This document shows positions 19,746 through 52,517 of a stretch of 64,000 bases of DNA, one piece after another. Each line of letters starts with the position of its first letter. Position 1 is the stretch's first letter. The notes beneath the pieces are model-generated. The model searched no databases and had not been told where the DNA came from. It saw only the letters and a list, made by a program, of their open reading frames with translations. The translations under genes were made by a program, and so were the position numbers. Source of the DNA: an uncultured Bacteroidia bacterium (lineage in GTDB: Bacteria > Bacteroidota > Bacteroidia > Bacteroidales > Prolixibacteraceae); the NCBI GenBank assembly GCA_903850335.1, contig CAINLJ010000135.1, positions 1 through 64,000 on the forward strand, given 5' to 3'.

Positions 19746-19773
19746 GAGATATCCTCGATATACATCGCATAAT

Positions 19774-22224
19774 TCAAAACTCTGAAATCAGAGAGAGCCA
19801 TTTCGAAGCCGAAGAAGTCCATACTTCCTTATAGGTAGCTGTGTTAAACTGGGGCCAGTAAGGTGTATCTTCATTAAACTTCGATTCCATACCAACAGGA
19901 ATAGCTCCAACAGTTTCTCCCGGCAAGGCGGTATAAAGCTGAGGATAGTTACTTCCTTCTCCCCAAATTAACGATTGACCGAACGGATTTTTACCTGCAA
20001 TCCAGAACAATTGTTGTTCAGCAATATTCAGCAACTCTTTGTCATGAAGAAATTTGCCGCAAAGAGCAGCTGCTTTCCCTGTGGCAAGGTGTACCGCAGC
20101 ATTTCCTTTAAACGAAAACCACACCGGGAACACACGTAAATAGTGCTCACTATCCAGACGCACACCGTTCTCTAGCTGCTCCTTAAAATCATTTGCACCT
20201 CCACCGGAAAGTCCTACCTGAATCTTATAAAAATTCACGGAATCCTTAATTTCATTGATGTTATAAACACCACTTGGAACCATTCCATAGGGTTGAACAT
20301 ATTGAATAATGGTTTTCAGGTATTCGCCATAATTACTAATAGCTTCTTTCCATCTTTTATAATACGGATTCTCAGGTTGTGTTTCGCAAAGAGCTGTTAA
20401 AGCCTGCATATAAACCTGGTCACGAGATTGGTGTGTAAAATGAACAATCGATTTTTTATTCAGATCGCGGTAAAAAAAGCCATGCAGCTTGTCCTTATCT
20501 TTGATTGGTTCGGTACGCTGACAATCGAGTGTATAACGAATGGCTTTGGCGGCCTCGTCGGCGTAATACGTATCGCCCGTTAAGCGATAAAGCAGACTGG
20601 CACTATACGAAATATTGGCCATAACCTGACTGTTGGAGGCCATTGCCGCATGATCGCCTCCACCCCCGCCAGTCAGCTCAGTAAATCCCAGCTTATCGAA
20701 ACGTTTACGGGCAAAGGAGTAGTCCTCTTTAGCTACCTTACATAAATGTTCTTTCAGCATGGCATCATCTTCAATCGTCATTGAAGCGTAAGCCTCCATA
20801 CCGGCAAATAGAAAATTTTCGAAGGCCCTGTCATGAATATGCACTCTTCGCCGTTTTGTAGAATCGTCCTTGGTGCCGATATAACCATCGGTCCATAAAT
20901 TGGTGCCCCAGGTTTGAGCGCGGTAACCATCGCCAAGTCTTGTTTTAAGTATAAAATCGATGCCCCATTCTGCCTCTTCCATTAATCGTTGATACAACAC
21001 TATATTGTTTTTTTCTTTGGCATTTCTTGCCATTTCCATTAACGAAACGGCCAGTTCGCCCGACTGCAATACCTGTTGAGACATATCGGCAGCGTCGTGC
21101 CAACCCCCGTTCAGGGCAAAAAGTTTTCCGTTATAAATTCCGTTCAGATCGGTGTGGCAAACACCATGTTTCCCCGGAACCGGGTAGCCGCAACGTTCGC
21201 AGAACACAAAGTTCAACACCCTCCAGGCAGAGTCGTCCCATATATTTGGATTGATGTAAAATGGTTTACTGACAATATTACCTACACGCAGGCAATATTG
21301 TCCCTCTTTTTTAAAATCGCTGAAATTGATTGTCTCAAAATTTCCGATATCGGCTTTCACTTTTTTGACATCTCCTTCATAAACTTTGCCGGATGTTACA
21401 TAATCAATAAGCTGGAAATGGCCATCATGATTTTTTACAGTTGTAATGGCCGATTTTTCACTATTTGTTCCATAACCCGTTGTGGAATAAATAATCCGGT
21501 CCGATGCCGGCATCCAGCCACTCACGACCTCTGGATTCTCTACCTTTTCGAGTGATAACTCATCAATATCAAATTTTAGTGAATCGCCCATGATGCGTTC
21601 CCTTCCGAAAACTTCAATTGCAAACGACAGTTTAGTAACTTTATCACGGCCGAGTTCCGGCATTTCCACAAAACATTCGTTCCATTGCCTGTTAATTAAA
21701 TTCATTTCATGATAGCCTTCCCGTCCATATTTATCCGGTACCTTGATTTTGCCATCGTTCTCAACATACAGATTGAGATAAATACTGCGGGCACCTTCGC
21801 AATCAGGGTAGATGTAAACTTTAATACGATTGTATTTTTCCCAGTTAGCACCACCTACATCTAAACTGGCCATCGATGTGCCAAAACCAAGACCCCAACC
21901 TAAAAATTGAGTAACTGTAGTAGGGGCGGCCAGGTGCAGGCTATGTTTTCCGGAAATTTTTCTTTCCGTTGTAACTGACATACTTCCGATACCTTTGTGC
22001 GACCACTCTTTAAGATTTTCCATATCACAAAGTAAATCAGACTGCAGCACTTTCTTTGTCAACCCAAAAGACTCGAAAGACTTGCTGTAGTCAAGCGGCA
22101 AAGGACGATGTACAAGACCTGTGTAGCGAATATCATCTTTTAACTTTTTATCGATTTGAGCTTGTAATTGAATCGCCAAACCTACTATCAAAAACAGTAC
22201 TACAGATAGAATAAATTTTTTCAT
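19774..22224 (-). CDS. Exported multi-domain GH9 glycoside hydrolase
   Basis: The 816-residue protein has a signal peptide (cleavage near LQAQ, residue 23), a carbohydrate-binding-like beta-sandwich (about 60-230), an Ig-like CelD_N domain (about 240-325) and a GH9 (alpha/alpha)6 catalytic domain (about 330-812). The catalytic base motif GGWHDAAD (373-380) and a C-terminal Glu in YKEVWTSSASKW are present. A Cys cluster, CERCGYP...GVCH (342-357), matches the structural zinc site of CelD-type enzymes. GH9 members are endo- or exo-acting beta-glucanases, and some are glucosaminidases. It is the last gene of the eight-gene minus-strand operon, after two transporter genes, so its product probably feeds them. 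Confidence 0.93.
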   Translation of the reverse strand: MKKFILSVVLFLIVGLAIQLQAQIDKKLKDDIRYTGLVHRPLPLDYSKSFESFGLTKKVLQSDLLCDMENLKEWSHKGIGSMSVTTERKISGKHSLHLAAPTTVTQFLGWGLGFGTSMASLDVGGANWEKYNRIKVYIYPDCEGARSIYLNLYVENDGKIKVPDKYGREGYHEMNLINRQWNECFVEMPELGRDKVTKLSFAIEVFGRERIMGDSLKFDIDELSLEKVENPEVVSGWMPASDRIIYSTTGYGTNSEKSAITTVKNHDGHFQLIDYVTSGKVYEGDVKKVKADIGNFETINFSDFKKEGQYCLRVGNIVSKPFYINPNIWDDSAWRVLNFVFCERCGYPVPGKHGVCHTDLNGIYNGKLFALNGGWHDAADMSQQVLQSGELAVSLMEMARNAKEKNNIVLYQRLMEEAEWGIDFILKTRLGDGYRAQTWGTNLWTDGYIGTKDDSTKRRRVHIHDRAFENFLFAGMEAYASMTIEDDAMLKEHLCKVAKEDYSFARKRFDKLGFTELTGGGGGDHAAMASNSQVMANISYSASLLYRLTGDTYYADEAAKAIRYTLDCQRTEPIKDKDKLHGFFYRDLNKKSIVHFTHQSRDQVYMQALTALCETQPENPYYKRWKEAISNYGEYLKTIIQYVQPYGMVPSGVYNINEIKDSVNFYKIQVGLSGGGANDFKEQLENGVRLDSEHYLRVFPVWFSFKGNAAVHLATGKAAALCGKFLHDKELLNIAEQQLFWIAGKNPFGQSLIWGEGSNYPQLYTALPGETVGAIPVGMESKFNEDTPYWPQFNTATYKEVWTSSASKWLSLISEF

Positions 22225-22268
22225 TTTACATCTATATTTGTCATGCTAAACATCTTAATGTCAGTTTT

Positions 22269-23174
22269 TTAAATTCTTCTCATTATTTTCCTGAAGGGTC
22301 CGGGCAAGGTGTTCCAGGGAAGTTCTGAAAGAATTGTAAATAATAGAATGGAAGGTTTAAAACAGGATGCTGCTAAAACTATAGCCATTCCATTATTCAT
22401 ATAAGTGAGCCCTGTTGAAATGGCTATTTTACCCTTTTTATCCTCCTTAAAGCCAACTAAAAACCCGATAACATGAAGCAGAATAAATATGAGGTATAGA
22501 AATACCGTTTGCCAAAGGATAGGAATAAAATCGTTGAGTATGACATTGCGCTGCGAGCCAATAACAGCAAACACCATCAGCGTTAGTAAAAAGATATTTA
22601 TGGAAGTAAATATATGGGTTGTTTTCGCAATAAATTCAGAAAAAAACCGTCTAACAATCAATGAAATCACCATAGGCAAGAAAATGATAAACGCGAGGCT
22701 TTTAAAAATCCACCATGGTGTAACAGCTAATCCATCAACGTGTAAAGCCCAGAATAACACCGGCACTGTAAATGGGGCAATGATCGAAGTAAGAATTAAA
22801 ATACTCGTCGAAAGTGCTATGTTGCCTTTGACTATATCTGTCAAGGCAGGTGAAGCTGCACCGGCAGGCATGGCAGTAAGTAATAAAATACCAACAGCAA
22901 GTTCAGGGCTAATTAAACTGGTAGCCTCAAAAAGCAGAACTGGTACTACTAGCATGAACATAAAAACAATGAATGCCATATACCGGTAATTTTTGATGTG
23001 CTTTAAGATTTGGGCTAAGTCTGTTTTCAAAAAAACAAGCAACAGCATTACAATTAAAAATGGCTGTAAAAGAGACATGAAAAAATCAATCAAAACCGGA
23101 TGTATCAGCCCCATCACCAGCCCTGCAATCATAAACACCCAAAAATATCTCTCTGTGAATTGATATCCCTTCAT
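22269..23174 (-). CDS. Bile acid:sodium symporter (BASS) family carrier
   Basis: This 301-residue inner-membrane protein has about nine hydrophobic helices and the BASS hallmarks: LLTAMPAGAASPALTDIVKGN, with the Pro/Gly/Ala-rich discontinuous helix, and GLTYMNNGMAIVLA near the end. Family members use sodium to bring in organic anions such as bile acids, pantoate or 2-keto acids. It lies between the MFS gene (12 bases) and the GH9 gene (44 bases) in the operon. With a LarA homologue in the same operon, uptake of a hydroxy- or keto-acid product is a reasonable guess. The C-terminus is shorter and more basic than in typical members. Confidence 0.88.
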   Translation of the reverse strand: MKGYQFTERYFWVFMIAGLVMGLIHPVLIDFFMSLLQPFLIVMLLLVFLKTDLAQILKHIKNYRYMAFIVFMFMLVVPVLLFEATSLISPELAVGILLLTAMPAGAASPALTDIVKGNIALSTSILILTSIIAPFTVPVLFWALHVDGLAVTPWWIFKSLAFIIFLPMVISLIVRRFFSEFIAKTTHIFTSINIFLLTLMVFAVIGSQRNVILNDFIPILWQTVFLYLIFILLHVIGFLVGFKEDKKGKIAISTGLTYMNNGMAIVLAASCFKPSILLFTILSELPWNTLPGPFRKIMRRI

Positions 23175-23186
23175 TCCAAATATGTT

Positions 23187-24485
23187 TTAGACACTTACGT
23201 TATCTATACTTTTAACACTTCGGATAAGTGTTAAAATCATAACCACGGCAACAACAGGAATCAGGCTTGCCACAATAAGGACAGGTGTAAACGAATAATG
23301 ATCAGATACATATCCTATCAAAAAAGTACATAATATGGTTCCAATCTGGGCTGCAGTTCCGGACATACCGCTGACTGTTGCGACCGATTTACTCTGAAAA
23401 AGGTCTGAAGGAAGAGTTAAAACCATCGTTGAAAACGAGGCATATGCAAACATTGAAAATCCGAAAATAGCTGCAAGTAAAAACGGGCTTGATGTAAATG
23501 CAGCACCAGCGAGAATAAACATCCCAAGTCCTCCGAAGACAACAACAACTTTACGTGCACTAATCACTGACCATCCGTGATTAATCAGCCAACTTGACAG
23601 ACCTCCACCGAAAAAATTGCCCAGATCGGCAGCTACAAATGGAATCCAGAAAACGAGCAGTCCTTGCTCAAGATTAATGTTCTTGCTTACCAAATAGATA
23701 ACGAACCAGTCTGCGACGAAGAACCAGACAGGATCAATAAGTGCCCGGCCAAAAATCACTCCCCAGGTTTGACGCAATTTTAGAAGTTGTAACCATCCCA
23801 CCGTAGAAGACCTTGATGAATCCTGATCGTTGTCCTTCCTGTCTTTTAAGATCATTTCACGTTCAGATTCACCGATGCGGGGATGATTTTCAGGACTATG
23901 ATAAAGTAATCGCCAAATAATCAGCCATATAAAACCCAGTGAGCCGGTGATCACAAAGGCATACCTCCATCCTCCAAAAGTATGATAGAGCCACACGACA
24001 AGAAATGGTGCTATTGCAGCACCTATGCAGCCACCGCTTTCAAAGAGAGCTACTGCCAAACCTCGTTCACGTTTGGGAAACCATTCAGAAACCGCCTTTG
24101 TTGCTCCGGGCCAATTGGCGGCTTCCCCTCCTCCCAGGAAAAAACGAAATGTGCAGAAACTTTTTAATCCGGTTGCAAAGGAGGTTGCAATGGCTGCAAT
24201 CGAATACCAGAGAACAGTAATTGACAATCCATTTCGGGTGCCAACCCGATCAATTAACCGGCCTCCTGCACTTTGGCCAATCGCGTTGGCTATTCGAAAA
24301 GAGATCACAATAAGTGCAAAATCAGCATTGCTCCAGTGATAATCATTTTTAAGAAAAGGGGCGAGTACGGAAAGCGTCTGCCGGTCGATATAATTCAAAA
24401 CAGTTGAAAGGAAAAGCAGACCTCCTATCCACCATCTTAATGAGGGAATAGATCTGTGTTTTTTCAGGCTAAGGTTATCTATCAT
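23187..24485 (-). CDS. MFS transporter of the anion:cation symporter (ACS) type
   Basis: The 432-residue protein has 12 predicted helices and the ACS-family features [15 protein letters not shown] in helix 1, [13 protein letters not shown] in loop 2-3 and [23 protein letters not shown] in helices 4-5. Relatives such as ExuT and DgoT carry hexuronates, aldonates and other sugar acids with protons. It sits 40 bases downstream of the larA homologue and 12 bases upstream of the BASS carrier. Two different organic-anion carriers in one operon suggest two related acidic substrates, or substrate and product exchange. Confidence 0.92.
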
Positions 24486-24525
24486 TTAGTTGTACCATTT
24501 TGAATTTGATATCGTCCTGATAGTT

Positions 24526-25788
24526 TTAGATTTCTGAAGCTTGTACAGGGAGTACTTCACTGCTATAATTCAAGACTCCGATCTTTACCTTTTTATCCAG
24601 ACTAATCCTTGTATCAAGGTATTTTTGAACATCGTTTATATGCAGATGATGAAACCCCATGATGTTGGTCAGCACGCTATCCATGGTTAGAGAGGCCTTG
24701 AAATTGCGTTTAATGTGGTTAAGGTACATACATTCGGAGGCTCCAAACCGGTCTTTGATAACATTATCTTCCAGCATTTTCCAAAGGGTCTTGTCATCAT
24801 AACCTGCAAGACGGGCAATTTCCTCTCCATGAGTAGGAGCAATACCTTCGTTACAAGGTGAAAGCAGGATAATGTCGCCTCCACTTTTTGTGGCCAGTTC
24901 AGCAGAGAAAAGTCCTTTGTCGGCCTGAGTAAAATCGTGATCGGAAGGGTATGAGCTGCTGATTGTAATGTCTGCCTTTTCTGAAAATTTTGCACCAAAG
25001 ATTTGCATTCCCCATTTTACGGCCTCACGGTGGGCATCGATAAAATGTCCGGCAACCGCTTTGAGTAATTCACCACTGTCGGTTTGAATAACATTTACTA
25101 TGAAATGGAGCCCAACTTCAGTCGCAAAATCTTCCATTTCCTCGCGGCAAGGTGTGAGTATTTTTCCAAGCTGCTGTTCTGTGGCGCCTAAAAGATGCAT
25201 AGCATTGACAGTTTCAGTCCCTGCTACACCGGGTAGAAAAATCTTGGCTCCTCCACTCCAGCCAACAGGATGGTGCGGTAAGACTCCGCCAACACCAATC
25301 CGGAAATCAGCCTCCATGACCTCTTTGTTCACAACAATCCGGGTTCCTCTGCGGGTCACACCATGGACAACAAGGTTAGTATGGCAGTCGTGGTGACAGA
25401 TCGCTACCTGGTTCATCAGATCACGACCGAACCGTTCTTCGATTTCCTCTTCGGTCATCGGGCGATGGGTGCCGTAAGCGATGATGAGTTTGATCTGTTC
25501 ATTCTTTACTCCTGCCTTGTGAAGTTCCTCCAGAATCACCGGGATAATCAGTTTTTGAGGGGTAACCCTTGTACGGTCGTCGACAAGGATGACAACAGAA
25601 GCATCTTTCGACACAATTTCACCTAACTGTTTTGTGCCGATGGGATGTTGAATTGCCTTTCGTATCTCCTCAGCATCGCTTTCAGGAGAGGGAAATTCAT
25701 TGCGGTGCAAGTTAAAACAAAGGTTCTCCTGAGGTATATTCAGATCAATGATTCTTTCGCCATAATGAACAGGTATTTTCATTTCCAT
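24526..25788 (-). CDS. larA: LarA-family nickel-pincer-dependent racemase/epimerase
   Basis: This 420-residue protein is a homologue of lactate racemase LarA (DUF2088). All key positions have the same spacing as in Lactiplantibacillus LarA: DDRTR with Arg74, GTHR with His108, HHPVGWSGGAK with His172 and Lys182 (the lysine that carries the nickel-pincer cofactor), and His198. LarA relatives racemise or epimerise 2-hydroxy acids, including sugar acids. The cofactor needs LarB, LarC and LarE, and none is in this window. The gene lies 2 bases after the ceramidase-like gene and before two anion carriers, so a hydroxy acid released by the operon's hydrolases is a plausible substrate rather than lactate. 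Confidence 0.9.
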   Translation of the reverse strand: MEMKIPVHYGERIIDLNIPQENLCFNLHRNEFPSPESDAEEIRKAIQHPIGTKQLGEIVSKDASVVILVDDRTRVTPQKLIIPVILEELHKAGVKNEQIKLIIAYGTHRPMTEEEIEERFGRDLMNQVAICHHDCHTNLVVHGVTRRGTRIVVNKEVMEADFRIGVGGVLPHHPVGWSGGAKIFLPGVAGTETVNAMHLLGATEQQLGKILTPCREEMEDFATEVGLHFIVNVIQTDSGELLKAVAGHFIDAHREAVKWGMQIFGAKFSEKADITISSSYPSDHDFTQADKGLFSAELATKSGGDIILLSPCNEGIAPTHGEEIARLAGYDDKTLWKMLEDNVIKDRFGASECMYLNHIKRNFKASLTMDSVLTNIMGFHHLHINDVQKYLDTRISLDKKVKIGVLNYSSEVLPVQASEI

Positions 25789-25790
25789 AT

Positions 25791-27350
25791 TTATTTTTCC
25801 GATATTTTCAACTTGGTTAATAGCTCTGAGATCTTATCCTGATAAATTTTTTGCCACTCCGGAGCCAGAATACAATTCATAACCTCATAACCTCCCTGTT
25901 TGTAACTTTCAGCAGTTGGGGCATAGTGCAGATAGCCATTTGAATAACCGGAGATAAAAGTATTGGGATAGGGTGAGCTTGCTTTTATTTTCAAGCCTGC
26001 TTCTGCAAATGGTTCTCCGGGAAAAGAAACGAGGATAAAATCTCCGATACGAAATGCCATTATCTCAGCTGAAACATGATCTCCACCAAGACGTTTAATA
26101 TCTGCCTGCCGGAGCATAAGCTGATGGTTGTCTTCCTGTATTTGAGAAAGCTTCTCCATAGCAAGAACGTTACGGAGATACTTGGCAATATCTTTCTTAT
26201 TTTCTTCATCCATTATATCCAGTCCTGATAATCCGGATTTTTTTTCATGCAGATATTGTTCGGCATCGTACGATGGAAAGTCAGGCGAAAGGCTGTATTT
26301 GATAAAGAGTGGGATAAATGTTTTTAAATTCAGACTTGTTGAACGGAGTGAGGCAAGTACTCTTCTTTCTTCCTGAGACAAGGTATCCAGCAGGAGGGGT
26401 ATGTCTGTCCGAAGGGGCAGTCTGATATTTTCACTTACAACTGACAATTGATTGCCATGGCCTGTCTTAATTTCTTTTAGGGCTTTCAGGACACTTATCC
26501 CGAGCATCTGTCCAAATGGTTCACAATCTCTTGGATGATTGGTGTCCTTATATAAAATTTCTGTGATATCTCCAGCAGCACCCTGAATAAAGAAAGCCAT
26601 GGACTGATGCCCAAGCTGATCTTCGATCATGCGGGAAGCAAAACCGGGATACTCAGCAGTAACGCCTTTATCCGGGACGCCAGTATAGGGATGGCAGGCA
26701 TAATTATAAACAACAGCCTTAATGGTTCCATCGGTGCGGATCAATTTCAGGATACCGATTTCAGGATCAATTTCTCCAAGCCCGGCAATCTGATCGTCAG
26801 GCAGATTGGGGTTGGCATGACGAATTGTAAACACCTTTCCATCTTTTAACCTGATTCGGCGGTTCATCGCAAAACGGTTTTCAAAACCTTTTCCGGCTCC
26901 TGCTTTTACAGGTTCAAGGTTTGAAATTGCCTTCTTAACTGCCATTATGGTTTTGGTTGCCACATCTGCAGTAATTTTTTTCCCTCCGTTTAGGAAGCCG
27001 TCAAGGTGATTGTGCGAAGCGCTGATAAGCACATGATTAATTTTGAATTCATTTTTAAGCTGTTTCGTAACATCAGGCAAAAACGTCTCAGGGATGTCGC
27101 CGATACCTCCAATCGCAATCACATCCATCGTGATAATGGCTACACGCGAAGATGCATTTTCGAAAACCAGTGCCTTTACAAATAAGGAATCATGCACGTT
27201 TCCACAATTATCTGCAGTGATATTGCTTTTACCTGTTCCTGCTTTAAGCTGGGCCACCACATCCTGACTAATCAAAATAGCAATGACAAACAGCACAAGG
27301 ACTAAATAGGTCCGTGAACCCGATTTTGCTATTTTTCTCCCTGTCATCAT
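25791..27350 (-). CDS. Exported neutral ceramidase-like protein
   Basis: The 519-residue product matches the N-terminal catalytic domain of neutral/alkaline ceramidases (PF04734) and has a signal peptide or anchor near residues 15-34. Zinc-binding segments SASHNHLDG and YACHPYTG are present. The nucleophile region, GDxSPN in true ceramidases, reads GDITEI, so the catalytic serine position is threonine and the flanking Pro-Asn is lost; ceramide hydrolysis is therefore doubtful. The usual C-terminal domain of ceramidases is also short. Proteins of this type are common beside glycan and sugar-acid genes in Bacteroidota and Planctomycetes, where their substrate is unknown. It overlaps the upstream isomerase gene by four bases. 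Confidence 0.85.
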   Translation of the reverse strand: MMTGRKIAKSGSRTYLVLVLFVIAILISQDVVAQLKAGTGKSNITADNCGNVHDSLFVKALVFENASSRVAIITMDVIAIGGIGDIPETFLPDVTKQLKNEFKINHVLISASHNHLDGFLNGGKKITADVATKTIMAVKKAISNLEPVKAGAGKGFENRFAMNRRIRLKDGKVFTIRHANPNLPDDQIAGLGEIDPEIGILKLIRTDGTIKAVVYNYACHPYTGVPDKGVTAEYPGFASRMIEDQLGHQSMAFFIQGAAGDITEILYKDTNHPRDCEPFGQMLGISVLKALKEIKTGHGNQLSVVSENIRLPLRTDIPLLLDTLSQEERRVLASLRSTSLNLKTFIPLFIKYSLSPDFPSYDAEQYLHEKKSGLSGLDIMDEENKKDIAKYLRNVLAMEKLSQIQEDNHQLMLRQADIKRLGGDHVSAEIMAFRIGDFILVSFPGEPFAEAGLKIKASSPYPNTFISGYSNGYLHYAPTAESYKQGGYEVMNCILAPEWQKIYQDKISELLTKLKISEK

Positions 27351-28207
27351 GATAGGATAGGCCCTGAAAAGGTTTCTTTTGCTTCCTTAAGTAACATCAA
27401 AACATTTTGCCGGCTTTGGTAAGCCGCAGTATCCGGACTGGATGTATAATCAAAACCAAGTTCGACTGTCAGGAATCCGTCATACCCGGTTTCGTCGAGG
27501 GCTTTCAAAAAAGGGATAAAATTGATTGTGCCTTCACCCGGAATTCTGTGCTGGTCTGAAAGTGTGTTGTTATCGTCCAGATGGATATGCAGAGGTATCT
27601 TTTTTTGAATAAGGATGTAAAGGCTGTCAACGAGCGATTCTTTGTTGACATGGCAATGCCCCGTATCGAGTGCAATACCCATATTGGGATAGTTCTGTTT
27701 TTCAATGAACCGCGCCCCTTCTTCAACAGTCAGAATCAGATCACTTTCGAGCATGTGTGCAGGTTCGAGTAACAGGAGTACATCCCTTTCCAGGGCATAT
27801 TCAACAAGCTCATCCAAACTGGCAGTAAGTTGCTGCATTCCTTTGTCATAGCCCTGTCCATAAAGTGTACGCCCGGGGCATAGGCTCACCTTTTTGCACC
27901 CAAGGGCAAGAGAAGTATCAATAGAATGTTTGATGTATTCAACACTGTCTTTCCGAATATTCGCAATCGGGCTGCAAAGGTTGGTTGGATAACCGAACTG
28001 GGCAGGGATAAATCCTGAAATCTGAATGCCTGTTTTATCGATGGTTTCTTTAACCGAAGTGATACTCTGCTGATCCATATCACGATAGTAGGCATGGGGT
28101 CTGCCTCCCCAAATTTCAATACCCGGATAACCGAGGCCTGCAACCCTTTTGATTGTTTCTTCCAGGGTGTAGTTGCAATATAATTTTGTGGAAATGCTCA
28201 GTTTCAT
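27347..28207 (-). CDS. Cytosolic sugar phosphate isomerase/epimerase-fold enzyme
   Basis: This 286-residue TIM-barrel protein of the AP endonuclease 2/xylose isomerase-like family has no signal peptide. Metal and substrate segments are LLLEPAH, DTGHCHVNKES, HIHLDDNN and LTVELGFDY, giving the usual Glu/Asp/His/Glu set. It would isomerise or epimerise a sugar or keto-sugar derivative imported by the operon's carriers. The stop overlaps the ceramidase-like start (ATGA) and the start lies 14 bases after the paralogous gene upstream. The substrate cannot be read from the sequence. Confidence 0.9.
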   Translation of the reverse strand: MKLSISTKLYCNYTLEETIKRVAGLGYPGIEIWGGRPHAYYRDMDQQSITSVKETIDKTGIQISGFIPAQFGYPTNLCSPIANIRKDSVEYIKHSIDTSLALGCKKVSLCPGRTLYGQGYDKGMQQLTASLDELVEYALERDVLLLLEPAHMLESDLILTVEEGARFIEKQNYPNMGIALDTGHCHVNKESLVDSLYILIQKKIPLHIHLDDNNTLSDQHRIPGEGTINFIPFLKALDETGYDGFLTVELGFDYTSSPDTAAYQSRQNVLMLLKEAKETFSGPILS

Positions 28208-28221
28208 TTTGAGATTATTTA

Positions 28222-29100
28222 TTACTCTGCAATTAACTCTTCCAGCATCGCCTTCATTTTCACGGCTTCTTCCATTATATTCGGTATGCCACTGATATCG
28301 ATCACTACATAACCTTCGTAGCCTGTGTTCCTGAGGGTATCGATAATGTTTTTAAAATCGATATCCCCTTTGCCGGGCTGGTAATGGTAGGGTCTTGTAC
28401 CGTCGTTATCTGAAAGATGTACAAGTTTGAGGTATTTACCAAGCTTGTAAATACCCAGATCGAGGTATTCATTGATGGCATGTGCATGGGCAACATCATA
28501 GACCATTCCGATGTTTTCCACATTGCATTCGTTGAAAATGCTGATGATACCGTCGACTGAAGAGATAAAATCACCAGCTCTCATTTCCATAGCAAACTGC
28601 AATCCGTTACTACCGGCAATTTCGGATGCTTTCCGCAGCTGATCGATGACAATCTGCCTGAGCTCTGACCATTTAAAGCCTTCGGGCACATCAACAGCTA
28701 CTGAAGGTCCTCCGTGGTAGATAGAAGTTCGTTCTTTAGGTACCATTTCAGGAGGGAGATAAAAACAGTTTGTGCTCATTTTGGCTCCTATCTCCGCAGT
28801 CATTTTACAGATCTTTGTCAAATCAGCAAGTGTCTTTTCCCGTTTCGTTTTATCCAGTGAAAACAGGTCATAGGTAACAGCCATGATGCTGACAACTTCC
28901 AAATTGAGTTCTTTCGAAAGGTCTATTACCTGTTGCCAGTTCTCTTCATAATCCTGGCATTCTCCAGCAACAATTTCCATTTCCATGGTTGAAAAGCCTG
29001 CTTCCGAGATCTCTTTCATCACTTTAATGAGACTTTCAAGTCTGGGCGGAAGTCCGTAAAGGGTTATGGGTATTGTAAACCCGCATGTTACTTTCATCAT
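28222..29100 (-). CDS. Second cytosolic isomerase/epimerase-fold enzyme
   Basis: This 292-residue protein has the same fold as its neighbour but is not a close copy. Conserved segments are FAMEMRAGDFIS, VYDVAHAHAINE, LVHLSDNDGTRPYHY with GKGDIDF, and VVIDIS, in which the last metal-ligand position is Asp rather than Glu. That change may mean a different substrate or altered metal binding. Two such enzymes in tandem usually catalyse successive steps, for example on a keto-sugar acid. It follows the exported nitrilase-type gene after 77 bases and starts the tight part of the operon. Confidence 0.88.
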   Translation of the reverse strand: MMKVTCGFTIPITLYGLPPRLESLIKVMKEISEAGFSTMEMEIVAGECQDYEENWQQVIDLSKELNLEVVSIMAVTYDLFSLDKTKREKTLADLTKICKMTAEIGAKMSTNCFYLPPEMVPKERTSIYHGGPSVAVDVPEGFKWSELRQIVIDQLRKASEIAGSNGLQFAMEMRAGDFISSVDGIISIFNECNVENIGMVYDVAHAHAINEYLDLGIYKLGKYLKLVHLSDNDGTRPYHYQPGKGDIDFKNIIDTLRNTGYEGYVVIDISGIPNIMEEAVKMKAMLEELIAE

Positions 29101-29177
29101 TTTTTTGTTTTTAAATATGATCCATTTAATTTATTCAATCTTATATTTTAATAGCGAATCGCCTGTAATTAAGGGGT

Positions 29178-30230
29178 TTAATTTTGAATATGTTTGTTGC
29201 GAATTTGTCGTGCACGGTTTAAATAGTCGTCCAGAAGTTCGATCCCGAATTCTTTTGCCATAGCTAAAGCACTTATATTTGGGTGGTCGCTTGTAATCAA
29301 AACAGACCCCATTTTACCCGGGTCGGTTATTGTTACCTCCTTCCCGTATTTTTCTTTGAGTTTACGAAGACGCTCCCAATTGTAATCCAGGTGTGCCAGG
29401 CAGTAATCCAGATTTATCGTCGCAACTGTAAAATCAAAATAATTTGTGGTTGATGCGATTACTTCACCCTGAGGGTTACGGATTTCTGATGGTGCCTCCC
29501 TGGACTCAAGGGCTCCCAGGAGAAAGGACCTGCAATGACAGGCCCAATAACCTTGCATCAGTCCTCCATGAAAATTTGATGAAAACAGGATGATCTCAGG
29601 TCGTTGAGATGCGAGTTTTTCGCAAAGTTCAGTGAAGTTTAAATCAAAGCAAATCACTGACGCAACCCTCCCAAAATCACATGTAAAAACTGATACCTTG
29701 TTACCGGGTATGATACCACTCTCAATTTCATCAATTGTCGGGTAATTTTTATCATATATACCAACCAATCTTCCTCCCCGGTCAAGCAGGAAGCTAGAAT
29801 TTCTCCAACCCTTACTTTCATCCATGTGTATGGCTCCGAAAGCAATGTAGCATTGGTGTTCTCTGGCAACCGATGCAAAGAAATCCAATAGCTGGTTTTT
29901 CAATATCCTGATATACGCAAATTGTTCCTCAGTAGTAAATCCGGATGGACTCTCGCAGGACTCAGGTAAAACAATTAAATCCGGTTTATCCGGTAGAACC
30001 TGATTCAGTTCATTGCGCCAGAATTCGATTACTTGTTTTGCAACATCCTGCATCCCAAGTGTCTTTTCAATGCCATGTGGATGGTTTCCTATTGTAGCCA
30101 CCCTGATATATTTAGATGCACTCACCGGCATGGCTAATCCTGCGATTAGCAGGTACACTAACATGACATGATACAAAACCTTCCTCAAATCTATTTCTGC
30201 TTTCATCACAATTTTCGTCTTTATTTTCAA
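29178..30230 (-). CDS. Exported carbon-nitrogen hydrolase (nitrilase superfamily amidase)
   Basis: The 350-residue protein has a long N-terminus with a signal peptide ending near PVSAS (residue 39; an inner start at Met9 would shorten it). The nitrilase catalytic triad is complete: Glu90 in VLPESCE, Lys161 in IYDKNYP and Cys194 in VICFDLNF. Most nitrilase-family amidases are cytosolic, so an exported one is notable; it would cut an amide or carbamoyl bond in the periplasm. It is the first gene of the eight-gene operon, directly after a good promoter. Together with the ceramidase-like protein it suggests that N-acyl or amide groups are removed from the substrate before isomerisation. Confidence 0.9.
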   Translation of the reverse strand: MKIKTKIVMKAEIDLRKVLYHVMLVYLLIAGLAMPVSASKYIRVATIGNHPHGIEKTLGMQDVAKQVIEFWRNELNQVLPDKPDLIVLPESCESPSGFTTEEQFAYIRILKNQLLDFFASVAREHQCYIAFGAIHMDESKGWRNSSFLLDRGGRLVGIYDKNYPTIDEIESGIIPGNKVSVFTCDFGRVASVICFDLNFTELCEKLASQRPEIILFSSNFHGGLMQGYWACHCRSFLLGALESREAPSEIRNPQGEVIASTTNYFDFTVATINLDYCLAHLDYNWERLRKLKEKYGKEVTITDPGKMGSVLITSDHPNISALAMAKEFGIELLDDYLNRARQIRNKHIQN

Positions 30231-30255
30231 AGTGAAATCTGTTTAGGATACTTAC

Positions 30256-30286
30256 CAAAAATAGGACAAAATCTTTATATTTTAAA
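30256..30286 (-). promoter_or_regulatory. Promoter of the eight-gene amidase/LarA/GH9 operon
   Basis: On the minus strand TTTA (30286-30283), one mismatch from TTTG, is followed after 19 bases by TATTTTTG (30263-30256), an exact TAnnTTTG match. Initiation would fall near 30250, about 20 bases before the nitrilase start codon. It is back to back with the promoter of the hybrid kinase, so the kinase and the operon may be co-regulated. Confidence 0.65.
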
Positions 30287-30301
30287 GGTTATTAATTTCA
30301 G

Positions 30302-30309
30302 TATATTTG
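30302..30309 (+). promoter_or_regulatory. -7 element of the hybrid kinase promoter
   Basis: TATATTTG (30302-30309) matches TAnnTTTG and lies 61 bases before the start codon of the hybrid kinase. The best -33 candidate is TTTA at 30281-30284 with a short 17-base spacer. Confidence 0.5.
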
Positions 30310-30370
30310 CTGATACTGGATTATTCCATGGCACATAATCTGACCGGATTTTCAATTATCATATCGTTTA

Positions 30371-33300
30371 ATGAAAAGGATGGATTCAAAATATTTACTA
30401 TTTGCTCTTTATTGTTTGATTGTATCGTGCATTCAACAAAAAAGAGACAATCCGGAAACCAGGAATCCATTTTTTCCGTCGAATATCAGTAATCCTTCAA
30501 CAGTAGGACCAACTTTGGTCCCGCTAACCTCAAATCCTGTATTAATTTCAGATTCCTCGAAGGTTTATCCTGAGACGGTTCAAATTGAATTACATTATAA
30601 AACCAAAGATATTGCCCTGAAGAAAATCAGGGAATTAAAATGGCCAGGAAAACATTACCTATCAGACGTTAAGACGCATGTAAAACCGAAGATTGCTGGA
30701 AGGAAATTACCAAAAATCGCGGAGCCTGATTTTACAATTGCTAAACCAGTAATAAAGAAGGCTGGATACCCGACACTAAAGAAGATTAGCCCTTTACGTC
30801 ATTCTGAAAATGCAATGTACGACATTCAGCACACAGAATTGCGGGCACTAGACATTTGCTGGGATAAAGACGGATCTGCCTGGGTCGCTACAGGCCTTGA
30901 GATAGCACATTTGCTTGGTGATCATATAGCATCCTATGGGGCATCGCAGGGTGGATTGTCTGCTGTAAGCAACATTAAAACAGATGATTCTGGAAATGTG
31001 TGGTCTGCATTTAAGGGTGCCGGTTACTTTAATGGAAAATATTTCTACTCATTTGGCAAAGAGGAAGGATTTACCGACAGTGATGTCTATACGATGTTCA
31101 AAGATTCCAGGGGTAGGATGTGGTTTGGGACCCGTGGTGCAGGAGCTATTTGCTATAACGGGAAAGGTTTTTTTCATTACGGTAAAAAACAGGGATTAAG
31201 GTCTGCAAGGGTTAGTGCTATTGGTGAAGACAAAAAAGGAAATATGTGGTTTGGTACTGAGGGCGGTGGAGTTTTTAAGTTCGACGGACAAAGTTTTATA
31301 GAATTTTCATTTAAGGAGGGCTTGCCAACAACTTATGTCTATTCAATTTTTTGCGCCCGTAATGGTGAATTATGGTTTGGACATTACCCGGGAGCCCTGA
31401 CTAGGTTAAGAAATGATACATTAACTGTGTACGATTTTGGACCGGAAATGAATTCAACAGTTTTTGGTTTGAATGAAACAGAGAAGGGTAACATACTGGT
31501 GGGAACCGTTGGGTCAGGATTATTAAGGTATGATGGAGACAAATTTGAAAAGATTGATAAAGAAGCAGGTCTCAAAGAAATAACAATCATGAAGATAGCT
31601 GCAGATCCTCAGCAAAACATCTGGGCCTTGGGAAATCAGATAAACAGGTTGAGGATTTCAGATTTCAGCTACATTCCAATTCCGGGAACTCAGGGTGTTT
31701 ACACTATTGACAAGAACAAAAGGGTAATCCTGGATCTCGATAAATATACCTTCCTGGATAACAAAAAGGCCGTTACCTATTCGGCAATAGGATTTAAAAC
31801 CACAGGAATTGCAAGGGATGAAGAAGGAAGATTATGGTTTACAAATTGGTGCGAGGGGATTGGCATTTTGGATGGAGACAGAATCAAATCGGCGATAATC
31901 AACGGCAAAACAAACTGGGGTTGTTATTCAAGCATTGGAAATGGTTTAAATGGAGAGATCTGGTTTCAATCATGGACATATGGGTTAGTTCATCTTAAGA
32001 AAGGAAAATTAATATCTTATATGAACAACCCGGCATTTGCTGACCTTGGTGGAATAAATGCTTCATACTGTCAACCGGATGGTACAATGTGGTTTGGGGC
32101 CAATAACAGTGAACTCATTAAATATGATGGTAATAATTTTTACAGATTTCCTGACTTGGATAAGTCTCTTAAAAAACATGGATCTACTGGCATCAATGAA
32201 ATTTCAGCTGACGAACAGGGCAATTTATTAATTTCATCGCTGGGTGCCGGTATGATTTCTTATGACGGAAAATCATTCAGGCTTCACAGTGACGGAGACT
32301 TCAAAATTGGAACAGGAGCCGGTGCAGATCCTACAGAAACCGGAACCCAGACTTTCCTTAAAACGGATAAGGAGGGGAGGATCTGGGCCATTCTAAACGG
32401 GAAATTAACCTGCATAACAAAAGGCAAACGATTACAATTTGGCTCTTCTGACGGATTTCTTTTTGTTCCGGTCTCTTTTTCGTTTGAAAAGGATGGGAAA
32501 ATGTGGTTTAGTAATGAAGAAATGACAGGATCTGTAAATGTTGAACATCTGCTTGAAGTAAAAAAGTCGCCTGTTGTTACAATCACAAACCTAAACATAT
32601 TTCAGCAGGAGATTGACTTTCGAAGCTTACAGGATTCAATTGCCAAAGGGAAAAGCTGGCTACTCCAGGATGTGAATGTGAATCTTGGAAAACTTAAGTT
32701 TGATTCGGTTCAAAATTTCAGGCTGCTGCCTTCGAATATTATATTTCCCTATAAAGCAAACCAGCTTTCCTTTATTTATGGTACGACAGACTTGAATATT
32801 CAAAGTAACGTCAAGTTTAGTTATTTTCTCGAAGGATATGACAAAGCCTGGTCAGTTCCCTCGGAAGACAGAATAGCAAACTATAAAAACCTTGACCAGG
32901 GAGATTACATTTTCAAAGTTAAGGCAAAATTAGTTAATGGAGAATTCGGTGAAATTTGTTCGTACAATTTTAAAATTACACCCCCTTGGTGGCACACCTG
33001 GTGGGCACGTTTGGGTTATGTAATTATGACTATACTACTCATTATTTTGTATAACAGGTGGCGCATTGCAAGTTTCAGACAACGTCAAGAAGAATTGGAA
33101 ATGGAGGTAGAGGTTGCTACTGCCGAAATCCGGAAACAAAAAGATGAAGCTGAAATCCAAAGAGAAAAGGCTGAAAGATCAGAACAATTTAAACAACAAT
33201 TTCTTGCCAATATGAGTCACGAGATTCGTACCCCAATGAATGCTGTTATGGGCATGACGAATCTTGTATTAAACACACCACTTAAAGAAAAGCAAAAGTT

Positions 33301-34681
33301 TTACCTGGAGAGGATCAAAAAATCGGGTGATAACCTGTTGCATATAATCAACGATATTCTGGACCTGTCGAAGATCGAGGCGGGCAAAATGGAACTTGAA
33401 CAGATTGACTTTTCATTATTGGATATGCTGGATCAGGTTAAACAAACCCTTAACCACCGGGCTGAGGAGAAAGGATTATCACTTCTTGCCAATATTGGGC
33501 AAAACGTTCCTGATATTGTCCTTGGTGATCCTTCAAGACTAAATCAGATTCTGATTAATATTGCTGGTAATGCGATTAAATTTACGGAAACAGGTAGCGT
33601 TTCGATTGATGTTACCCGTGAACCCGAGGGAATCAGGTTCTCGGTGACAGATACGGGGATTGGCATACCACAGGATAAACTGGAGACTGTTTTTGAAAAT
33701 TTTTCACAGGCTAATGCTTCTGACACACGTAAATACGGAGGTACTGGATTAGGTCTTAGTATCTCGCGGCAGCTCGTTGAAATGATGGGAGGAGCTATAT
33801 CCATAGAGAGCAAGGTGGGATATGGGACAACCTTTTCTTTCGTACTCCAATTAGAAGAAGGTTCAGCCGAACGGCTTCAGCAAAGAGCAACACTTGAAAA
33901 TAGTGTAGATGGGAGTATTCTTGACGGACTAAAAATACTGCTTACAGACGATAACGAATATAACAGGATCGTAGCAAAAGACACACTGATTTCGAATTGC
34001 GATGTTGAAATTCAGGAGGCAACTAATGGACAGGAGGCTATCGAGTGGGTTAAGCAAATGCAGTTTGATGTGATCCTCATGGATGTTCAAATGCCTGGTA
34101 TGAACGGATTTGAGGCCACACGGTTTATAAGGGCAAATCTTGGAAGTCCGGCGAACCAGACGCCTGTCATAGCCTTGACTGCAAGTGTGCTTCGAACTGA
34201 CCTTGACAAATGTAAACAGGCAGGAATGAATTCCTATATTCCAAAACCCTTTAGTTCACAACAACTGATTACCGGTATCGCACAGGTTTTAAATATCGGT
34301 ATAAGGGTAAAAAATGAAAATAAAGGGTCTTCCCATTCTGAACATTCTATGAAAGTCACAGACCTGACTTACCTCGAAAAATTTTGTGAAGGAGATTTAA
34401 CCCGGATGAAAAAATATATATTGATGTTTACCTCATCGGTGCCTGCTTTTATTGAGAAATTAAACCTTGCATTGTCAGCCGGGGACTTTATCGAAATTGC
34501 CAGTCAGGTCCATGGTTTCAAGACAAGGTGGATCATGATGGGCATGACTGATACAAAGGATCTTGCACAATATCTGGAGCAATTATGCCGCGAAGGATCT
34601 GATGAAGGATTAATCCGGTCAAACCTTGATCTTCTAATAAAGGAGGTTGGGATTGCCTTGATTGAGCTCGAAAATCAATAG
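30371..34681 (+). CDS. Hybrid sensor kinase: propeller, Y_Y_Y, HisKA, HATPase, receiver and HPt
   Basis: The 1436-residue protein begins with an export segment that ends in the lipobox-like LIVSC. Two-component regulator propeller repeats fill about 160-740 (MWFGTRGAGAICYNG, MWFGTEGGGVFKFDG), followed by a Y_Y_Y domain (about 780-870), one membrane helix (877-897), a coiled coil, HisKA with His950 in SHEIRTP, an HATPase domain (about 1057-1160, with DTGIGIP and GGTGLGLSI), a receiver with Asp1238 in VILMDVQMPG, and an HPt domain with His1381 in QVHGFKTRW. Unlike PUL hybrid sensors it has no AraC output, so the phosphate must leave through the HPt. The receiver-only protein encoded next is the obvious acceptor. 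The ligand is likely a glycan fragment. Confidence 0.93.
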   Translation: MKRMDSKYLLFALYCLIVSCIQQKRDNPETRNPFFPSNISNPSTVGPTLVPLTSNPVLISDSSKVYPETVQIELHYKTKDIALKKIRELKWPGKHYLSDVKTHVKPKIAGRKLPKIAEPDFTIAKPVIKKAGYPTLKKISPLRHSENAMYDIQHTELRALDICWDKDGSAWVATGLEIAHLLGDHIASYGASQGGLSAVSNIKTDDSGNVWSAFKGAGYFNGKYFYSFGKEEGFTDSDVYTMFKDSRGRMWFGTRGAGAICYNGKGFFHYGKKQGLRSARVSAIGEDKKGNMWFGTEGGGVFKFDGQSFIEFSFKEGLPTTYVYSIFCARNGELWFGHYPGALTRLRNDTLTVYDFGPEMNSTVFGLNETEKGNILVGTVGSGLLRYDGDKFEKIDKEAGLKEITIMKIAADPQQNIWALGNQINRLRISDFSYIPIPGTQGVYTIDKNKRVILDLDKYTFLDNKKAVTYSAIGFKTTGIARDEEGRLWFTNWCEGIGILDGDRIKSAIINGKTNWGCYSSIGNGLNGEIWFQSWTYGLVHLKKGKLISYMNNPAFADLGGINASYCQPDGTMWFGANNSELIKYDGNNFYRFPDLDKSLKKHGSTGINEISADEQGNLLISSLGAGMISYDGKSFRLHSDGDFKIGTGAGADPTETGTQTFLKTDKEGRIWAILNGKLTCITKGKRLQFGSSDGFLFVPVSFSFEKDGKMWFSNEEMTGSVNVEHLLEVKKSPVVTITNLNIFQQEIDFRSLQDSIAKGKSWLLQDVNVNLGKLKFDSVQNFRLLPSNIIFPYKANQLSFIYGTTDLNIQSNVKFSYFLEGYDKAWSVPSEDRIANYKNLDQGDYIFKVKAKLVNGEFGEICSYNFKITPPWWHTWWARLGYVIMTILLIILYNRWRIASFRQRQEELEMEVEVATAEIRKQKDEAEIQREKAERSEQFKQQFLANMSHEIRTPMNAVMGMTNLVLNTPLKEKQKFYLERIKKSGDNLLHIINDILDLSKIEAGKMELEQIDFSLLDMLDQVKQTLNHRAEEKGLSLLANIGQNVPDIVLGDPSRLNQILINIAGNAIKFTETGSVSIDVTREPEGIRFSVTDTGIGIPQDKLETVFENFSQANASDTRKYGGTGLGLSISRQLVEMMGGAISIESKVGYGTTFSFVLQLEEGSAERLQQRATLENSVDGSILDGLKILLTDDNEYNRIVAKDTLISNCDVEIQEATNGQEAIEWVKQMQFDVILMDVQMPGMNGFEATRFIRANLGSPANQTPVIALTASVLRTDLDKCKQAGMNSYIPKPFSSQQLITGIAQVLNIGIRVKNENKGSSHSEHSMKVTDLTYLEKFCEGDLTRMKKYILMFTSSVPAFIEKLNLALSAGDFIEIASQVHGFKTRWIMMGMTDTKDLAQYLEQLCREGSDEGLIRSNLDLLIKEVGIALIELENQ

Positions 34682-50734: not shown

Positions 50735-52141
50735 TTAATTAACCTTTTTGGCGATTCGCAGAGCCTCAGTAGTTGTAAAATATTTTGTAATCATATTTGG
50801 AATTTCCCAATCAGGCAGCTTTCCAGCCTTAAGATACTCAAGGTATTTTGCTGTTACCTGGGCAAAATGCGCCTCATGACCAACTTTCAGTTGTTGAGGA
50901 ATAACTAACTTCCACGTGTTTTTATTTACGCTCTCAATTGTAAGCCCGGCCTGAGGAAGGTTTTTTATCTTCGTTTCGAGAATCGAAGCAAAATTATTCA
51001 GATCGGCATCGGTAGCAGCGGTTATGTACAAGGTCGGATCATTCTTCTCTTCGGTCCCCTGACGAATTTCCAGGTTGGCCAATGAACCTCTCATAATCGA
51101 ATAATGAGTGTCGCCTGCACCCTCAGGAGCCTTGTAATTCCAAATCGCTGTAACCTTTGCAACCGTACCTCTTAACTTGTAAATGATTTCACCATTAGCA
51201 TAAACATTCAAATTCTCATCTTTGATTGCGTCAGATAAACAGGAAGGATATTGATCAAGCAAGGTGACCTCTTTAAACTCATCTTTTGAAAATGTCGTTG
51301 GCCACCGTCGGGCACTGATAATCTGGATATCGCTTTTTTGCAAAATTTGTTCCGGATAACATTCCCATTGGACAAGGTCAACAAGATGAGTAGTCACATC
51401 GACAATACCTTCTCCCTGCTGATTAACATCAAAAAACCATCCCGGACGGACAAGAACATTACCCGAAACATTCTTATAAAAATAATGTACACTTATCATC
51501 TCTATCCCCGGTTTTTCAGCTGATCCCGGCTTAAGTGTTCCAAAGATCTCAGGTATCATGGATAATTCACGTTGTAGCATTGTCGTCACAGAGAAACGCT
51601 CTGTCATTATATCATAAAGCAGCACACCTTTTTCCTTTGCCTTTTTGAATGCCTCTTCGAGGATTGGGAATTGCTCATTTGTAATGACCATTGGTTTATC
51701 GGCCAGTACATTCAAACCTGCATTCACAGATTTCAAAATATAATCGCTTTTTATCCGGTTATTCCCTGACAGGACGACTACGTTACCCCGCTTTTCTGAA
51801 ATCATTTTTTCAAGATAATCGGCACCACGATAGACCTTTTCGAACCATTTTGTAGGATTTTCGGCTCTTGCATTATAACCTAAAATCCTTTTAACATGTT
51901 CATTAACATCATTCCCTTCCGGAGCATAAACAAACACCTCGGAATTAATCTGATCATACATATTCTTTTGAACAAGTGCAGCATGAAAATGCCCCGGATC
52001 AAGTGTTAAGAGTCTAATCTCCCCTTTAGCTCCGGTAAACAGATTAATTCTTCCTTTTTTCCCTGAGTCATCGCCAGGACCACAGGAAATTAAATTGACT
52101 ATAAAAAAAAATGCCATAAACAGAAACGTTAATTTTCTCAT
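50735..52141 (-). CDS. Gfo/Idh/MocA-type lipoprotein with an Oxidoreduct_C domain
   Basis: From the ATG at 52141 the product has 468 residues. It starts with a lipoprotein signal, LIVNLISCG being replaced here by FFIVNLISCGPG. An NAD-binding fold (about 35-170) contains LTLDPGHFHAALV and VLADKPMVI, the latter matching the xKP motif of Gfo/Idh/MocA dehydrogenases. The C-terminal half resembles the putative oxidoreductase C-terminal domain (PF16490). The protein would sit in the periplasm or on the outer membrane, where NAD must be tightly bound for redox work. It ends the PmoA/Gfo/URO-D operon, after the toxin-antitoxin pair. Confidence 0.85.
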   Translation of the reverse strand: MRKLTFLFMAFFFIVNLISCGPGDDSGKKGRINLFTGAKGEIRLLTLDPGHFHAALVQKNMYDQINSEVFVYAPEGNDVNEHVKRILGYNARAENPTKWFEKVYRGADYLEKMISEKRGNVVVLSGNNRIKSDYILKSVNAGLNVLADKPMVITNEQFPILEEAFKKAKEKGVLLYDIMTERFSVTTMLQRELSMIPEIFGTLKPGSAEKPGIEMISVHYFYKNVSGNVLVRPGWFFDVNQQGEGIVDVTTHLVDLVQWECYPEQILQKSDIQIISARRWPTTFSKDEFKEVTLLDQYPSCLSDAIKDENLNVYANGEIIYKLRGTVAKVTAIWNYKAPEGAGDTHYSIMRGSLANLEIRQGTEEKNDPTLYITAATDADLNNFASILETKIKNLPQAGLTIESVNKNTWKLVIPQQLKVGHEAHFAQVTAKYLEYLKAGKLPDWEIPNMITKYFTTTEALRIAKKVN

Positions 52142-52184
52142 TGCAGATCTAAATTTAAAGAATACGGGAGTAAGCATCTTTTCA

Positions 52185-52517
52185 CTATTCAGAAAGTATG
52201 GCTAATATATTTTGAACTACTCTACTAACTGTCACATTATTAAGTAATGCAACCCTTTTAATAATGATATTTTTGTCTGCTGTGAATATGCGATTGGGTC
52301 TTATATTACTTTTTACAGCCAATTTCCCGGAACCGTAATCTGAGTCATTAATGGGGAAAGTGTATTCATCCTTAGTCATTTGGCTTGTTATCTGGCAAAG
52401 AATAATATCGTCTCCGTTTAGGTCTGCAAGAACAAGTGCGGGCCTTTTCTTTGAACCTGATAAATCGGAGAAAGGGAATGGAATAACTACAATTTCACCT
52501 TTTATAAATCTTTCCAT
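52185..52517 (-). CDS. MazF/PemK-family toxin (mRNA interferase)
   Basis: This 110-residue protein has the PemK/MazF fold: GEIVVIPFPFSD near the start, KRPALVLADLNGDDIILCQIT, with the conserved Arg-Pro-Ala, and the basic segment KSNIRPNRIFTADK. MazF toxins cut RNA at short motifs when free of their antitoxin. The start overlaps the upstream antitoxin gene by 16 bases, as is usual for type II pairs. The pair sits between two genes of a catabolic operon, with its own promoter, so it was probably inserted there. Confidence 0.92.
   Translation of the reverse strand: MERFIKGEIVVIPFPFSDLSGSKKRPALVLADLNGDDIILCQITSQMTKDEYTFPINDSDYGSGKLAVKSNIRPNRIFTADKNIIIKRVALLNNVTVSRVVQNILAILSE

Follow-up and report, generated by a model that had tools for sequence, protein, structure and literature searches.

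Residues linked to specificity have been described for the LarA superfamily. PMC11770544 tabulates, for five LarA groups, which residues occupy positions 175, 176, 358 and 359, and PMC7583248 adds the residue preceding Lys298. In PMC11851776, the alpha-carbon substituent points toward the four equivalent residues, which supports a reading of the pocket from them. We analyzed a LarA homologue encoded by an operon of an uncultured Bacteroidia bacterium (Prolixibacteraceae; assembly GCA_903850335.1, a draft genome of 5.5 Mb in 284 contigs). The window, that is the whole stretch of 64,000 nucleotides under analysis, is taken from contig CAINLJ010000135.1 (G000:C135), and the operon consists of eight open reading frames, all on the minus strand, spanning 30230 to 19774. 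We refer to them, in this order, as Nit, TIM1, TIM2, Cer, LarA, MFS, SBF and GH9 (Table 1). Four of them form a core that recurs in other genomes, and we consider it moderately probable that the operon serves the utilisation of a sugar acid.

The recurring core of the operon

We scanned genome contigs with the LarA protein in a pattern-based search, which gave 8 loci, and identified the neighbours by BLAST against proteins of the window and of the neighbours. The recurring core consists of TIM1, TIM2, Cer and LarA. It was present in eight genomes (seven distinct) of Bacteroidota and Kiritimatiellae, and around it the gene order, the carriers and the hydrolases vary between genomes. The preliminary description of this DNA had named scattered gene sets with no shared core in relatives as one outcome that would speak against the operon. 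Comparison of operon composition across genomes revealed a recurring core instead, because TIM1, TIM2, Cer and LarA remained together, with their order rearranged.

G072 (locus L032; Prolixibacteraceae UBA12447, the family of the window) carries TIM1, TIM2, Cer, LarA, MFS and SBF in this order, with a LarA 91% identical to that of the window, and G086 (L033), where the contig begins inside TIM1, carries the same run followed by GH9. The order in G536, G537 and G979 (L034, L035 and L112-L113) is GH27, a 776-aa esterase-like protein, a 747-aa protein (u747), TIM1, TIM2, Cer, LarA and an Nramp-like carrier. G537 is recorded as Proteiniphilum (Dysgonomonadaceae); its LarA and TIM1, the two proteins compared, are identical to those of G979, therefore we counted these genomes once. 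The run of G108 (L118, L040) comprises SusC, SusD, Gfo/Idh, the esterase-like protein, three Cer, TIM1, TIM2, LarA, the Nramp-like carrier, SBF and two Gfo/Idh. Kiritimatiellae genome G539 (L037) has a second LarA, TIM1, TIM2, a diverged MFS, Cer and LarA. The locus of G095 was split across contigs, with LarA, the Nramp-like carrier, SBF and Gfo/Idh on L036 and the esterase-like protein with Cer copies on L093; a close TIM1 was not found in this genome. On the 3.3-kb Kiritimatiellae contig L038 there was just the esterase-like protein beside LarA, and no other core gene was seen alongside the Verrucomicrobia LarA of L039 (50% identical).

Among the flanking genes, SBF also adjoins LarA genes of the group in L032, L033, L036 and L040. 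The esterase-like protein was detected in 4 of the 7 genomes searched, with no match at E 1e-30 in G000, G072 and G086. The structure model of u747 reached a pLDDT of 39.7, so that a glycan class could not be inferred and we drew nothing from it. The nitrilase and the GH9 enzyme had been described as parts of the set, and here the comparison gave a different result. An upstream flank could be read in 6 relatives (G072, G536, G537, G979, G108 and G539), and Nit did not adjoin the core in any of them. A GH9 homologue stood at the same place in one of 8 relatives (G086/L033, 88% identical) and was absent beside the core in G072, G095, G536, G537, G979, G108 and G539, of which G095 and G537 have short flanks. 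Therefore we regard Nit and GH9 as edge genes. Homologues of Nit (51-60% identity) are located away from the core in G072 and G108.

No SusC or SusD was found among the operon genes or their scanned neighbours in the window, as the preliminary description had noted. This absence is local, because two relatives carry the core inside SusCD loci. In G108, Pfam detected SusD and a TonB plug protein in a same-strand run that includes the core. In G536 it detected a plug protein and two SusD, encoded on the strand of the core and at least approximately 15 kb upstream of it.

The module was rare. The LarA clade (E <= 5e-195; next match 2.6e-66) was present in 5 of the 140 family genomes (G000, G072, G086, G095 and G108), and a Cer homologue was present in the same five. 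Close TIM1 was detected in four of these five genomes; three weak TIM1 matches (27-28% identity) of 7 were excluded from the module count. At E 1e-60, the even sample of the phylum gave 1 of 395 genomes and the sample of the order 1 of 393, the window genome alone in both cases. The sample around the Kiritimatiellae genome gave 1 of 387, that genome itself, and in the family of G537 there were 3 of 101. As these genome sets are samples, other carriers of the module exist unseen.

Pairwise identities of LarA, TIM1, TIM2 and Cer co-varied across 7 genomes (Spearman 0.50-0.90, lowest for Cer and TIM1; one of the three G108 Cer copies was used), a pattern that joint inheritance or joint transfer of the block would produce. 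Chance estimates for the co-occurrence were set aside, because adjacent genes are passed on jointly and the genomes are relatives. These observations support a co-inherited metabolic unit rather than a chance run of genes. The scattered distribution suggests that the module may have been transferred between phyla. Base composition was uninformative as to recent acquisition (G+C of 42.1% in the operon vs 40.1% in the window).

LarA, the other enzymes and the carriers

The closest solved structure to the LarA homologue was malate racemase Mar2 (209.9 bits), and its best NCBIfam model was the LarAH6 malate racemase NF052593, whose cut-off of 500 it missed with 322.3 bits. Residues equivalent to D72, R75, H108, H174, K184, H200, Q295 and K298 were all kept in the window LarA and in 8 of 8 orthologues, each at least 64% identical. 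The genes larE, larC and larB are adjacent elsewhere in the genome (G000:C223), all above NCBIfam cut-offs. Pocket positions 175, 176, 358 and 359 hold His, Pro, Ser and Glu, and Asp precedes Lys298, in the window and in all 8 orthologues; this set was found in none of 5 other aligned LarA sequences. It matches none of the five groups of PMC11770544. In the numbering of the window protein, the set is His173, Pro174, Ser351, Glu352 and Asp290. LarAH6 has His or Gln at 358 and Lys at 359, whereas Ser and Glu occupy these positions here, by a weakly aligned stretch. We rejected malate racemase as the function of LarA, with the score under the cut-off and pocket residues that seem unfitting. Since the pocket is polar and acidic and appears to have no Lys for a second carboxylate, a polyhydroxy or amine-bearing acid appears a more likely substrate than malate or a hydrophobic acid.

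Other LarA homologues were also observed. A second one in the same genome (L049:6950-8239, G000:C254) is a LarAH18-type putative nickel-dependent hexonate epimerase (648 bits vs cut-off 500), and its gene is clustered with UxaC, a PfkB-family kinase and a short-chain dehydrogenase, separate from the operon. Weak LarA matches (approximately 24-34% identity) occur in many of the 140 family genomes and may be the hexonate epimerase gene. A second LarA group, LarA2, was found with NagA and MFS in L041:9178-11634 and L042/L097; in L041 one of the Nit homologues mentioned above lies between u747 and GH27, followed by LarA2, NagA and MFS.

The structure model of Cer (pLDDT 71.3) was based on an alignment of 10 of 11 Cer sequences; that of L033, with a doubtful start, was excluded. 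Model residues 34-519 matched the neutral ceramidase of P. aeruginosa (2zws) with a Z of 29.2 and a root-mean-square deviation of 3.9 over 357 aligned residues. In VIA-align with Cer, the chains with Z of at least 8 were all neutral ceramidases, a result that excludes nothing. Against the equivalog NF041649, Cer scored 25.4 bits, below the cut-off of 1200. The ceramidase C-terminal domain is missing, as the last residue of Cer aligns at 491 of a 646-residue chain. Four residues which we take to be the ceramidase zinc ligands appear kept in Cer, in an alignment whose first half is weak (8 bits), and the first of them is lost in one extra Cer copy of G108. By a similarly weak alignment, the position of the active-site Ser is Thr in the window Cer and Ser, Thr or Ile among the copies. 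Judging by the modelled fold, Cer may cleave an amide. The three tandem diverged Cer copies of G108 lie at L040:12083-16791, one of them without the HxH motif, and several ceramidase-like copies are present in G095 (L093, L094).

In Nit, Glu90, Lys161 and Cys194, presumably the catalytic triad, were invariant in 7 aligned homologues. The closest solved relative of TIM1 was TM_0416 (2zvr), with a match that spans the C-terminal half, and its best NCBIfam model was IolO, with a score far below the cut-off. By its name in NCBIfam, TM_0416 is IolO, 5-keto-L-gluconate epimerase. The expected metal ligands Glu, Asp and His are kept in TIM1 and the last Glu is changed to Asp (9 of 9 aligned sequences); all 7 module members among these retain the first Glu, whereas the 2 distant sequences do not. 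TIM2 scored best against the NCBIfam model of fructoselysine 3-epimerase (146.3 bits, below the cut-off of 305), and its four expected metal ligands are kept in 7 of 7 sequences.

The closest solved structure to MFS was the D-galactonate transporter DgoT (6e9n, 166 bits, residues 22-428 of 432); against the D-galactonate transporter subfamily TIGR00893 it scored 245.8 bits, below the cut-off of 395. In relatives, the Nramp-like carrier occupies the slot after LarA, as MFS does in the window. GTGS replaces the metal-binding motif DPGN in 6 of 6 of these carriers, and the second such motif, MPH, is replaced by TAP in four and by GAI in two. As the motifs are lost, we prefer a putative organic cargo for this carrier; judging by the replaced residues, it probably does not move metal. 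Metal supply was considered as its role and rejected, although the NCBIfam model of Nramp metal transporters still accepts it (80 bits vs cut-off 50). Nramp-family proteins without the motifs were seen beside LarA or a TIM1-like barrel in L034:11303-12571, L035, L036, L040, L095 and L096.

Layout and surroundings of the operon

The preliminary description was right in the eight-gene same-strand run and in all protein families, which Pfam upheld (Table 1). From the first transcribed gene to the last, the gaps measure 77, 14, -4, 2, 40, 12 and 44 bases, a range of -4 to 77. Instead of two ATGA overlaps there is just one, between TIM2 and Cer. The TTG start of Nit at 30230 is doubtful, and its translation may start at the in-frame ATG at 30206.

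Table 1. Genes of the operon and the divergent kinase gene. Families of the eight operon genes were called with Pfam, each above its gathering score.
Feature	Coordinates	Strand	Support and remarks
Nit, carbon-nitrogen hydrolase	29178..30230	-	PF00795 CN_hydrolase, 61.7 bits; signal-like N terminus; edge gene
TIM1, xylose-isomerase-like TIM barrel	28222..29100	-	PF01261 AP_endonuc_2, 115 bits; core gene
TIM2, xylose-isomerase-like TIM barrel, ketose 3-epimerase-like	27347..28207	-	PF01261 AP_endonuc_2, 149 bits; core gene
Cer, neutral-ceramidase-fold hydrolase	25791..27350	-	PF04734 Ceramidase_alk, 44.8 bits; signal-like N terminus; core gene
LarA homologue, predicted nickel-pincer-nucleotide 2-hydroxy-acid racemase/epimerase	24526..25788	-	Lar_N PF09861, 201.2 bits; LarA_C, 26.2 bits; core gene
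MFS carrier, DgoT-like	23187..24485	-	MFS_1
SBF, sodium/bile-acid symporter family carrier	22269..23174	-	PF01758, 74.9 bits
GH9, glycoside hydrolase with CelD_N	19774..22224	-	PF00759, 71.1 bits; signal-like N terminus; edge gene
Hybrid sensor kinase (propeller, Y_Y_Y, HisKA, receiver, Hpt)	30371..34681	+	Pfam domains

A good promoter at the front of the operon had also been claimed, and it did not stand out, because both promoter models were at chance level. The sigma-70 scan of 18500-31500 found no minus-strand site preceding the first operon gene; the best minus-strand site inside the operon was 28301-28274, and 25 sites were found in the scanned region vs 30.4 expected. A TAnnTTTG box, which we take to be a Bacteroidota-type promoter box, lies ahead of the first gene on the minus strand (30263-30256), with no TTTG box at the proper distance from it. 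Across the window this box occurred 71 times vs 69.5 expected, and the two-box pattern (TTTG and TAnnTTTG) 6 times vs 3.8 expected, which we also counted as chance level.

The hybrid sensor kinase gene is divergent and starts 140 bases upstream of the operon, and a GH92 gene converges on it downstream. This kinase is a possible regulator of the operon. A Pfam scan at E 0.001 detected no DNA-binding domain in it, and no close homologue of it adjoined the core in relatives; in G072 SBF is followed by a different kinase/regulator pair, and G108 has a 29% identical hybrid kinase approximately 12 kb off. A penicillin amidase family protein (35153-37549, 708 bits) is encoded behind the kinase. Further along the window, the run at 50735-57568 encodes a pair of DUF6807 proteins, a pair of Gfo/Idh-type oxidoreductases and one URO-D family protein, and is followed by a GH106 rhamnosidase on the opposite strand.

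Possible function and comparison with known systems

The explanation that we favour, with somewhat better than even confidence, is a sugar-acid utilisation module. Cer, which every member has, and in the window also GH9 and Nit, would be exported, judging by signal-like N termini, and would act in the periplasm, trimming a decorated glycan or glycoside; in relatives, esterase-like, GH27 or GH42-like enzymes would take part. The DgoT-like MFS carrier would import the released polar 2-hydroxy acid to the cytoplasm with the help of SBF, and in relatives the Nramp-like carrier would replace MFS. The most likely candidates for the imported acid are aldonates and uronates, with amino-sugar acids as a further possibility. 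With its nickel-pincer cofactor, supplied by the products of larE, larC and larB, LarA would invert C2, and TIM1 and TIM2 would shift the carbonyl or invert C3 by isomerising or epimerising the keto or aldehydo form. The presumed flow would end in the general uronate route, and uronate-type genes are present elsewhere in the genome. The preliminary description had proposed removal of an amide, release and uptake of an organic acid, racemisation and isomerisation. Its acid uptake and racemisation fit the DgoT-like carrier and the intact LarA site; the proposed logic was thus supported in part.

Several points weigh against the sugar-acid module. The NCBIfam matches of MFS, TIM1 and TIM2 are all below curated cut-offs. 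Pocket positions 358 and 359 (Ser, Glu) were mapped via a weak, low-confidence stretch of the alignment, and the acidic residues in the pocket may just as well point to a substrate that bears an amine. The bond cleaved by Cer might be that of an ester or lactone rather than an amide. Pfam detected no kinase, dehydratase or dehydrogenase among the genes of the operon, so that the pathway would be incomplete by itself. In the LarA superfamily, gene context is not always a guide to activity, according to PMC7583248. We hold a wider proposal more tentatively, at less than even confidence: the core may be a horizontally spread catabolic module of Bacteroidota and Kiritimatiellae, with a new LarA specificity group for a polar sugar acid that possibly bears an amine, and with unrelated exchangeable carriers, including an Nramp without metal motifs that possibly carries an organic acid.

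An amino-sugar or N-acyl route, in which Cer (elsewhere NagA) deacylates and the substrate of LarA is either an amino-hydroxy acid or the hydroxy acid set free, is possible and appears to us about half as probable as a coin toss. Cer has the fold of a ceramidase, that is an amidase, and Asp and Glu in the pocket of the module LarA would suit an ammonium group. In L041 the second LarA group occurs with a NagA homologue (313.9 bits vs cut-off 225.65), GH27 and a Nit homologue, and NagA beside another LarA group gives at most a hint of amide removal. However, LarA2 is approximately 36% identical and its pocket is different. Searches with NagA gave no match next to the core in G086, G108, G536, G539 and G979, nor upstream in G072, and a kinase and a deaminase are absent from the operon. 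The operon might also be two transcription units side by side, Nit alone and then TIM1 to GH9, which we consider rather unlikely. The largest gap, of 77 bases, separates Nit and TIM1, and the 6 relatives whose flank could be read all lack Nit at that place; on the other hand, no minus-strand TAnnTTTG box lies inside this gap.

Non-canonical cleavage of a 3-keto-glycoside would use the TIM barrels together with Gfo/Idh for oxidation and elimination, with LarA tidying a by-product. Gfo/Idh genes flank the core in G108, one follows LarA, the Nramp-like carrier and SBF in G095, and both TIM1 and TIM2 are weakly related to a 3-keto-glucoside 4-epimerase. The barrels score higher against IolO and ketose epimerases, though, and there is no Gfo/Idh inside the core run of the window, G072, G086, G536 or G539: G086 has a weak match (25% identity) approximately 4 kb past GH9, and the Gfo/Idh genes of the window are more than 20 kb distant. 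We find this route improbable. Sphingolipid use is the least probable, with very little chance in our judgement. Here the substrate of Cer would be a glycosylceramide, and the 2-hydroxy fatty acid freed from it would be racemised by LarA. The ceramidase catalytic fold and the apparently kept pattern of presumed zinc ligands agree with it. 2-hydroxy acids are LarA substrates according to PMC11770544, but the LarA pocket is polar, not hydrophobic, and such a pathway would leave no role for the DgoT-like carrier and the two sugar-isomerase barrels. Further, Cer has no C-terminal domain, and the active-site Ser aligns, weakly, with Thr, Ser or Ile.

If the sugar-acid module is real, it would place an unassigned LarA group in a genetic context, narrow its substrates down to a few candidates and tie nickel-pincer chemistry to carbohydrate loci. 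It would also mean that there is a natural sugar acid which needs C2 inversion before use. It would moreover draw attention to a group within the Nramp family for which metal transport is improbable.

Several parts of the operon resemble known systems. The window LarA shares whole-length similarity, the cofactor Arg, Lys and His and the two catalytic His with LarAH6 Mar2 and the LarA superfamily (PMC7583248, PMC11770544); it differs from LarAH6 in scoring below the equivalog cut-off and apparently in having no Lys at the dicarboxylate position. Cer shares the fold of the catalytic domain with neutral ceramidases (2zws and human 4wgk), with the presumed zinc pattern apparently kept, whereas its identity to them is 13-22%, the C-terminal domain is absent, the active-site Ser is apparently replaced and the setting is one of carbohydrate genes. 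MFS matches DgoT over nearly its full length but stays below the TIGR00893 cut-off. TIM1 has its closest solved relative in TM_0416, although the match covers the C-terminal half and the last metal Glu is Asp in TIM1. The core of G108 and G536 resembles a polysaccharide utilisation locus of Bacteroidota in its SusC/SusD-type and esterase-like proteins, and in G536 also in its glycoside hydrolases, while the window operon and its immediate neighbours have no SusC or SusD. Among the literature matches listed (open-licence papers), neither an acid-handling core with LarA in such a locus nor this gene combination was described, in agreement with the preliminary description, which knew of no such pathway. 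In summary, these results suggest that known families are joined here in a recurring arrangement found nowhere described among those papers, with a LarA group that would lie outside the published specificity groups.

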